From: Elusimicrobiota bacterium
Lineage (GTDB): Bacteria > CAYTYR01 > UBA6262
Length of the DNA: 64,000 bases
Assembly (NCBI GenBank): GCA_003153935.1
Contig: PMCA01000011.1
Span: forward strand, 68,670-132,669
Direction of reading: 5' to 3'
The translations under genes were made by a program, and so were the position numbers. Shown here piece by piece: positions 9,210 to 56,695 of the stretch; the first letter of the stretch is position 1, and each line of letters begins with the position of its first letter. The notes below the pieces were generated by a model. That model saw only the letters and a list, made by a program, of their open reading frames with translations. It was not told the origin of the DNA and made no database searches.

Positions 9210-9247
9210 GGTGGCTGTTTGAGCTTAATTAGGCCCAAACAGCCACC
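9210..9247. terminator. Stem-loop behind the main pilin gene
   Basis: Twelve perfectly paired bases (GGTGGCTGTTTG at 9210-9221 with its complement at 9236-9247) around a 14-base loop. No U-run follows on the minus strand, so partial termination or transcript stabilisation is more likely than full termination. This would raise main pilin over minor pilin expression. The rest of the 9188-9287 gap is AT-rich and holds nothing else I recognise. Confidence 0.6.
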
Positions 9248-29532: not shown

Positions 29533-29612
29533 TGTATCATTTACGGGGTATTGTACTCCAAGTAGAGGCTAAAAAGCAAGGATAATTGATAAATAAAATG
29601 GACAAAAAAATA

Positions 29613-29699
29613 CGGAGAGACAGGGATTCGAACCCTGGGTGAGGTCACCCCCACATACGCTTTCCAGGCGTACGCCTTCAACCACTCGGCCATCTCTCC
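29613..29699 (-). tRNA. tRNA-Ser(GGA)
   Basis: Class II tRNA of 87 bases. Acceptor stem GGAGAGA pairs with TCTCTCC, discriminator G, anticodon loop CTGGAAA with GGA, long variable arm (GTGGGGGTGACCTCAC region) and T-loop TTCGAAT. No CCA is encoded. Followed downstream by the pilin promoter region. Confidence 0.96.
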
Positions 29700-29727
29700 A
29701 TTTAGGATATTGGTATTATATTATTGG

Positions 29728-29814
29728 CGGAGGCGGAAGGATTTGAACCTTCGGTCCGGTTACCCGGACTCCGGTTTTCGAGACCGGTGCACTCAACCAC
29801 TATGCGACGCCTCC
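29728..29814 (-). tRNA. tRNA-Ser(CGA)
   Basis: Class II tRNA of 87 bases. Acceptor GGAGGCG pairs with CGCCTCC, discriminator G; anticodon arm CCGGT-CTCGAAA-ACCGG with anticodon CGA; long variable arm; T-loop TTCAAAT. The two palindromic elements upstream carry copies of this kind of anticodon arm. Confidence 0.96.
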
Positions 29815-29825
29815 AAAGTTATTAT

Positions 29826-29909
29826 CCAGTTTTCCCTCCCTTGAAGTCTTCGACTTCATACAGGGAGGACAGGCGAGACTGGCGCCTTCAACCACTCGGC
29901 CACCCTTCC
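29826..29909 (-). repeat. tRNA-Ser 5' half with palindrome inserted in the anticodon (copy B)
   Basis: Read on the minus strand, 29909-29874 is a tRNA-Ser-like 5' half: acceptor strand GGAAGGG, D-arm GGCCGAGTGGTTGAAGGC and anticodon 5' arm CCAGTCTCG. A 40-base palindrome follows (CCTGTCCTCCCTGTATG to GGGAGGG), then AAAACTGG, the 3' side of the same anticodon arm. The variable arm, T-arm and 3' acceptor strand are missing; 11 bases later the intact tRNA-Ser(CGA) begins. Inner stem is seven paired bases TGAAGTC/GACTTCA with loop GAA; outer stem CCTCCCT/AGGGAGG. Not a working tRNA. Either a mobile tRNA-derived palindrome or a structured RNA. Confidence 0.8.
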
Positions 29910-29918
29910 AACTCTACT

Positions 29919-29978
29919 CCGGTTTTCCCCCCGTTGAAGTCTGTCGACTTCAATACACGGGGGACAGGCGAGACCGGT
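29919..29978 (-). repeat. Palindrome in tRNA-Ser anticodon arm (copy A)
   Basis: On the minus strand the flanks ACCGGTCTCG and AAAACCGGAGT equal the anticodon arm of the nearby tRNA-Ser(CGA), split by a 42-base palindrome between positions 35 and 36. Inner stem TGAAGTC/GACTTCA with loop GACA, outer stem CCCCCGT/ACGGGGG, conserved CCTGTCC at the entry. The tRNA 5' half is absent here; only the arm remains. It starts three bases after the tadA stop, so it lies in the same likely transcript. Confidence 0.8.
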
Positions 29979-29980
29979 AA

Positions 29981-30436
29981 CTATTTTCGTTTTTCTTTAA
30001 AAAACTCTTTTATTAACTCTCTGCATTCTTTTTCTAAAATACCAGCATGAACCTTAATGCGATGGTTTAATTTTTTATTACCGGTCACATTTAATACACT
30101 GCCGCAAGCCCCGGCTTTCGGGTCTTTGGCTCCAAAATGCAGTTCCCTGACCCTGGCGTTTACCAATGCTCCTGCGCACATGGCGCAGGGCTCGATGGTT
30201 ACATAAAGGATGACCTCGGGGAGACGGTAATTGCCGATCTTTTTGGCCGCTCTACGCAAGGTAACTATTTCCGCATGGGCAGCGGGGTCCGTTGTCATGA
30301 TCGGGCAGTTATGCCCACGGGCGATTATTTTCCCGTCGAGAACTGCCACTGCCCCAATTGGGACCTCATTTTTTCGCTTCGCTTTGCGGGCTTCTTTAAG
30401 CGCTGCTTGCATGAAATATTCATTTGTTCTTATCAT
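29981..30436 (-). CDS. tadA: TadA, tRNA-specific adenosine deaminase
   Basis: Converts A34 to inosine in tRNA-Arg(ACG). 151 residues from the ATG at 30436; the open frame continues back into the tRNA-Arg gene, so any longer start is false. Zinc and catalytic motifs AAHAEIV and PCAMCAGAL, plus RNCPI-like HNCPIMTTDPAAHAE. C-terminal helix ECRELIKEFFKEKRK matches TadA rather than other cytidine/guanine deaminases. No clear ribosome site; translation probably relies on the transcript leader from the tRNA 14 bases upstream. Its only known bacterial substrate is that adjacent tRNA. Confidence 0.95.
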   Translation of the reverse strand: MIRTNEYFMQAALKEARKAKRKNEVPIGAVAVLDGKIIARGHNCPIMTTDPAAHAEIVTLRRAAKKIGNYRLPEVILYVTIEPCAMCAGALVNARVRELHFGAKDPKAGACGSVLNVTGNKKLNHRIKVHAGILEKECRELIKEFFKEKRK

Positions 30437-30449
30437 CGAATAAAAAAAG

Positions 30450-30523
30450 CGCGCCCTACAGGATTCGAACCTGTGGCCTACTGATTCGTAGTCAGTCGCT
30501 CTATCCAACTGAGCTAAGGGCGC
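30450..30523 (-). tRNA. tRNA-Arg(ACG)
   Basis: 74-base tRNA: acceptor GCGCCCT/AGGGCGC, D-loop AGTTGGATAGA, anticodon arm ACTGA-CTACGAA-TCAGT with anticodon ACG, T-loop TTCGAAT. Discriminator G; no CCA encoded. It is the substrate class of TadA, encoded immediately downstream on the same strand. Confidence 0.96.
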
Positions 30524-56476: not shown

Positions 56477-56555
56477 GGAGGCGTCGCATAGCGGTTGAAC
56501 CGGTCTTGCCTGTCCCCCTGTCCTGAAACCGTAGGTTTCAAGGGGGGAAAACCGG
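56477..56555 (+). repeat. tRNA-Ser 5' half with palindrome inserted in the anticodon (copy C)
   Basis: GGAGGCGTCGCATAGCGGTTGA (22 bases, 56477-56498) differs at one base from the 5' end of the tRNA-Ser(CGA) gene at 29.8 kb. It continues as ACCGGTCTTG, then a 39-base palindrome, then AAAACCGG. The 3' half of the tRNA is missing and the intact tRNA-Ser(UGA) starts eight bases later. Inner stem TGAAACC/GGTTTCA with loop GTA differs from copies A and B (TGAAGTC/GACTTCA) by paired changes; outer stem CCCCCT/AGGGGG. Confidence 0.82.
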
Positions 56556-56563
56556 AAAGCAAT

Positions 56564-56650
56564 GGAGGGGTGACCGAGTGGTTTAAGGTGCTGGTCTTGA
56601 AAACCAGTGTGGGCTAACGCTCACCGGGGGTTCAAATCCCTCCCCCTCCG
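56564..56650 (+). tRNA. tRNA-Ser(UGA)
   Basis: Class II tRNA of 87 bases: acceptor GGAGGGG/CCCCTCC, discriminator G, anticodon loop CTTGAAA with TGA, long variable arm, T-loop TTCAAAT. It directly follows palindromic copy C and lies downstream of serS. Confidence 0.96.
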
Positions 56651-56695
56651 ATTAAAACAAAAACATAATAGTAATGATTTTTTAACCGATAATTT

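Follow-up and report, generated by a model that had tools for sequence, protein, structure and literature searches.

A CCTG-tagged palindrome has very probably broken tRNA-Ser genes repeatedly at one anticodon nucleotide in Elusimicrobiota

What would split a tRNA-Ser anticodon arm twice at exactly the same nucleotide, next to an intact gene with the same anticodon? The question arises from a 64,000-nucleotide stretch of an Elusimicrobiota genome (contig PMCA01000011.1, positions 68,670 to 132,669), hereafter the window. On its minus strand two palindromes, of 42 nt (copy A) and 40 nt (copy B), interrupt the arm at CTCG^AAA (the caret marks the junction), that is, between positions 35 and 36 of a CGA anticodon. 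The sequence-only reading had described this arrangement, with a whole tRNA 5' half in B, the arm alone in A and a 3' half in neither, and the sequence bears it out. It had also dismissed a group I intron, rightly so: the inserts measure 39-42 nt, the 3' exon is missing and no Rfam intron matches.

Read along the minus strand, copy A consists of ACCGGTCTCG, CCTGTCCCCCGTGTATTGAAGTCGACAGACTTCAACGGGGGG and AAAACCGGAGT in succession. The first (29969..29978) is the 5' side of the tRNA-Ser(CGA) anticodon arm, letter-identical to the intact gene nearby; the remaining 5' half is missing. The second (29927..29968) is the 42-nt element, a bulged hairpin with a CCTG tag in front, and the third (29916..29926) is the 3' side of the arm. 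Copy A has the tadA stop codon on one side and copy B on the other, and is trimmed almost to the arm at both ends. Copy B reads GGAAGGGTGGCCGAGTGGTTGAAGGCGCCAGTCTCG, CCTGTCCTCCCTGTATGAAGTCGAAGACTTCAAGGGAGGG and AAAACTGG, its 40-nt element (29834..29873) being preceded by a tRNA 5' half (29874..29909) that looks undamaged. After the element, AAAACTGG (29826..29833) forms the 3' strand of the anticodon stem by pairing with CCAGT of the copy's own 5' half. Nothing further of the 3' half survives; relatives keep it in full. The region of both copies folds with a z-score of -3.9, and none of 200 shuffles folded as well.

Upstream of copy A lies a tadA-like deaminase gene (29981..30439, minus strand, with Pfam deaminase domains), preceded by tRNA-Arg(ACG) (30449-30523). 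Downstream of copy B, also on the minus strand, follow an intact tRNA-Ser(CGA) (29725..29814, found by ARAGORN and Rfam) and an intact tRNA-Ser(GGA) (29612..29700).

Covariance models were used to look for further copies. R1 describes both arms of A and B together with their hairpins, R2 the hairpin only; copies A and B were used in building both models, and their bit scores (A, 93.5 with R1 and 62.3 with R2; B, 59.8 with R2) are thus not independent. Across the 1.75-Mb genome R1 finds exactly one copy beyond A and B. This copy C, which had escaped the sequence-only reading, lies in the window on the plus strand (56477-56555) and splits CTTG^AAA of a UGA anticodon (R1 E = 8.7e-15). It comprises a tRNA-Ser(UGA) 5' half with a 4-nt deletion (56477..56508), a 39-nt element (56509..56547; 61.7 bits with R1, which was built without C, and 53.2 bits with R2) and AAAACCGG (56548..56555), which supplies the 3' strand of the anticodon stem and is all that is left of the 3' half. 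After a gap of 7 nt follows an intact tRNA-Ser(UGA) (56563..56651, plus strand). R2 returns the same three copies from this genome plus one match at chance level. A CCTG hairpin-like match at window position 9246 is AT-rich and missed by the covariance model, and was taken as chance. All three convincing copies thus lie at the identical nucleotide of tRNA-Ser anticodon loops, and all three sit within tRNA gene clusters.

Comparison with relatives tells what B and C once were. In two relatives, G001 and G003, the order tRNA-Arg(ACG)-tadA is conserved; the next two genes are an intact tRNA-Ser(CGA), immediately behind tadA, and tRNA-Ser(GGA), which matches the order in the window. The 5' half of copy B matches this intact post-tadA gene of G001 and G003 at 34 of 37 positions, the CCAGT/ACTGG arm included. 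At the UGA locus, G001 and the more distant G004 have a conserved gene with no Pfam match and after it a tRNA-Ser(UGA) that is intact and carries no insert; the half in copy C matches the G003 tRNA-Ser(UGA) of its locus at 32 of 36 positions, the single 4-nt deletion being the difference. Each half thus resembles the intact gene that relatives carry at the same locus, which identifies B and C as the interrupted ancestral genes of their loci. In G002 neither tadA nor the neighbour gene of the UGA locus was found, and the comparison at the two tRNA loci covers G001, G003 and G004.

In both cases a tRNA-Ser of the same anticodon but another sequence type lies intact 7-11 nt downstream of the broken gene. 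The one after copy C has only 68-70% identity to the relatives' gene. The one after copy B has 96% identity to the relatives' tRNA-Ser(UGA), differing at 4 of 90 positions, the wobble base among them; the window's tRNA-Ser(CGA) is therefore a recruited tRNA-Ser(UGA) whose anticodon was switched. A search of the assembly with the arm pattern GTCTYGAAAAC yields a single intact tRNA gene per anticodon, CGA and UGA.

Is the element found elsewhere? The sequence-only reading had proposed searching the genome and its relatives for further copies tied to tRNA-Ser arms. The search did add the third tRNA-Ser copy, but most copies in relatives turned out to lie outside tRNA genes. R1 first found such hairpins in G002 and G003, of the same family, and nearly all dispersed copies inspected in relatives lie outside tRNA genes and carry no tRNA part. 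With R2, matches at E<=10 number 49 in G002, 10 in G003, 3 in G001, 2 in G004 and 25 in G042. Under stricter filters, six of 386 sampled genomes have matches at E<=0.001. Among these six are G118 and G255, of a distant family, with TCCCCCCTGT...GGGGGGA hairpins of the same layout; their common descent with the CCTG element is not proven. A GTDB-wide pattern scan for copies inserted in tRNA-Ser genes gave one real match, UBA6262, which is G003; the other three lie away from any tRNA sequence and are probably chance matches. Viral contigs contained no match to the element.

An alignment of eight sequences resolves the element into the CCTG tag and a hairpin whose outer stem has about 7 pairs and whose inner stem has 7; a TGTA-like bulge on the 5' side separates the two stems, and the loop is short. 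In this alignment 97% of the cells are paired, and 8 of the 14 pairs show two-sided, compensatory changes, a covariation that fits a palindrome acting as DNA and one acting as RNA equally well. Elements measure about 39-46 nt. The tag is CCTG in confident copies, rarely CTTG or CCGG. The last base is ambiguous by one, as the 5' T of the outer stem stands opposite G in the window copies and A in many relatives.

A dispersed repeat of G002 records how the element enters DNA. The repeat exists in a filled form, aaaatctagg^CCTG...GGGGGGA^taatcttcg (L081, L083), and in an empty form, aaaatctgtgtaatcttcg (L103, L105, L110). Comparing the two demonstrates precise insertion without target-site duplication, and thus without this hallmark of MITEs. 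The target consensus over 41 sites is YG^WAA, a figure biased by the many sites that come from one repeated G002 context; the tRNA-Ser sequence TCTYG^AAAAC agrees with it. A mobile palindrome aimed at the tRNA anticodon arm, one of two uses the sequence-only reading had considered, thus holds as far as precise insertion goes, but the arm is not its exclusive target, since most copies in relatives lie elsewhere. We also considered a general preference for hairpin targets and rejected it: outside tRNA sites, stems spanning the junction are no commoner than in shuffled sequences, and among the 41 sites hairpin character is conspicuous at the tRNA sites only.

Some elements of G002 are also nested in others. 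In four cases (L072, L087, L089, L100) the junction is the same, CCCGCRTCR^TTGA or a close variant. The host in these four cases is another palindrome subfamily (CCTGTCCCCGCG...TTGATC), entered at the same point of its stem. In the same genome a longer dispersed repeat (...aatctgtgtaatcttcgtaataatctgtgtaatcagttagcggaacgaagtggag...; L081-L086, L102-L110) harbours many elements.

The insertion in G003 (Elusimicrobia bacterium UBA6262) splits a tRNA-Ser(UGA) at the identical nucleotide; the intact copy downstream of it has the same 5' half, letter for letter. Its element ends, CCTGTACTCCC...GGGGGTA, are shared with other G003 copies and occur in no window copy, which favours an insertion separate from that of copy C. 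Judging by these ends, the G003 insertion is probably independent; the alternative is that the UGA locus received one insertion in an ancestor and that G001 lost it. In the G003 copy the arm is directly followed by CCGGGT, perhaps what is left of the 3' half.

Altogether, we are confident that these hairpins are a non-autonomous mobile palindrome which inserts precisely at YG^WAA and has repeatedly broken tRNA-Ser genes with CGA and UGA anticodons, replacements now standing downstream. The element, a CCTG tag and bulged hairpin, enters after YG and before WAA without duplicating the target. Several such entries into the anticodon loops of the tRNAs for UCG and UCA codons (TCTYG^AAAAC) broke the genes, as synteny with the intact genes shows. 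At the tadA locus, the sequence shows recruitment of a tRNA-Ser(UGA) and a change of its anticodon to CGA, in an order of events that we can only infer. Loss of the 3' half stops at the base of the hairpin that arm and element form together; replication slippage or hairpin cleavage there is the probable cause. Folding of single-stranded DNA makes this combined hairpin the best structure in A and C, though not in B or the G003 copy. Two observations count against this explanation. One is the lack of a transposase next to any copy examined. The other is that B and C retain the 3' side just to the end of the anticodon stem (AAAACYGG), and so clean a cut at the base of the arm, which in A affects both sides, is unlike a product of gradual decay.

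This tidiness is what speaks for a structured RNA, in which arm and hairpin would be kept for a role in the tadA-tRNA-Ser transcript, such as RNA processing or protection. Pairing between the two strands of the arm persists in each of the four tRNA-linked copies known (CCGGT/ACCGG, CCAGT/ACTGG) despite the lost 3' half, copy A keeps just the arm, and the copies lie inside tRNA gene clusters. However, the structure is absent from relatives with the same gene order (G001 and G003 for tadA, G001 and G004 for UGA), the hairpin family is dispersed at unrelated sites, and Rfam holds no family matching at A, B or C. Of the RNA use that the sequence-only reading had left open, the retained pairing stands, no further positive evidence was added, and we judge it unlikely. 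Integrases often use anticodon arms, and here a partial tRNA stands beside a whole one, as would be expected of attachment-site remnants from an integrative element using the tRNA-Ser anticodon loop. That origin is very improbable: no large insert or recognisable integrase lies between the copies and the tRNA genes, the palindrome falls inside the putative core, and neither the dispersed copies away from tRNA genes nor the lack of matches in viral contigs agrees with it. Least credible of all is a SINE-like element with the tRNA-Ser 5' half as its mobile part. The 5' halves at the start of B and C had suggested this layout to the sequence-only reading, but they differ from each other, each matching the intact gene of its own locus, and the dispersed copies lack a tRNA part; synteny thus refutes the likeness, the tRNA "head" being the broken local target gene.

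A closer relative would be the REP elements, moved by the RAYT (TnpA-REP) transposase of the same genomes. REP elements are likewise hairpins of 20-50 nt after a conserved tetranucleotide, with a bulged stem in some, and occur as many dispersed copies in several subfamilies per genome; nesting is shared too, a few REP families being reported in other palindromes (PMC3733652, PMC8266576). Size, 5' tag, bulged stem, dispersal and lack of target-site duplication all agree, and Y1 transposase genes are present in the own genome (G000) and in G001-G003. The copy number of RAYT-associated REPs is reached in G002, with its 49 model matches, whereas the own genome has just 3 copies. In the REP literature consulted (PMC3733652, PMC6006769) the tags are GTAG/GTGG or CGTC, and the string CCTG is absent. 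No CCTG hairpin adjoins any Y1 transposase examined in G000-G003, G042 and G118: none was found within about 1.5 kb of Y1 genes, and wider regions, taken around seven of these genes, contained none either. Similar hairpins occur in G255, where no Y1 gene was found, and insertion into an anticodon loop sets the element further apart. Given the different tag and the absence of hairpins flanking Y1 genes, we call it REP-like and do not file it as REP; that these are true REP elements is possible but doubtful. The search of the own genome turned up a single gene for a Y1 (RAYT-like) transposase, at L035 9357-10151 (G000:C24), with no CCTG hairpin near.

For the mobile palindrome that we favour, our best guess at the mover is a single-strand (HUH-type) transposase acting in trans. 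IS91-type (Y2) transposases were found in G042 only and in none of the four family genomes, and no transposase lies beside any copy examined. The defined hairpin and target motif offer a handle for finding the mobilising enzyme. Rickettsia palindromic elements are known chiefly from protein genes, and they are longer than the CCTG element. They too are small palindromes inserted within genes (PMC3733652).

The precise and repeated use of an anticodon loop as a landing site by a dispersed hairpin is unusual. Mobile palindromes are mainly known as intergenic repeats; here the same nucleotide of tRNA-Ser anticodons is struck repeatedly, in two genera, with intact same-anticodon genes adjoining. 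More tentatively, and with the balance of our judgement against it, the element might prefer the tRNA-Ser anticodon loop and drive turnover of the tRNA set, through gene loss, an arm-hairpin remnant left by processing at the base, and recruitment of the same anticodon downstream. If so, each insertion would have been answered by a same-anticodon tRNA directly downstream, once with an anticodon switch. The tadA locus is a natural counterpart of a laboratory case, Pseudomonas fluorescens SBW25, where loss of serCGA is likewise made good through the tRNA-Ser(UGA) gene serTGA (PMC7661048). There, large duplications arose in the laboratory, whereas here a natural UGA-type gene, its anticodon now CGA, stands beside the interrupted one.

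Palindromes within other RNA genes were seen in G042. A full-length 16S rRNA gene (182-1752 by its Rfam SSU match) contains one that resembles the element (CCCCCCCGTCTTGCTGTCGCAAGACAGCAGGGGAGG; L015 1501-1536), and a similar one (L067 1472-1507) lies within a 23S rRNA gene.
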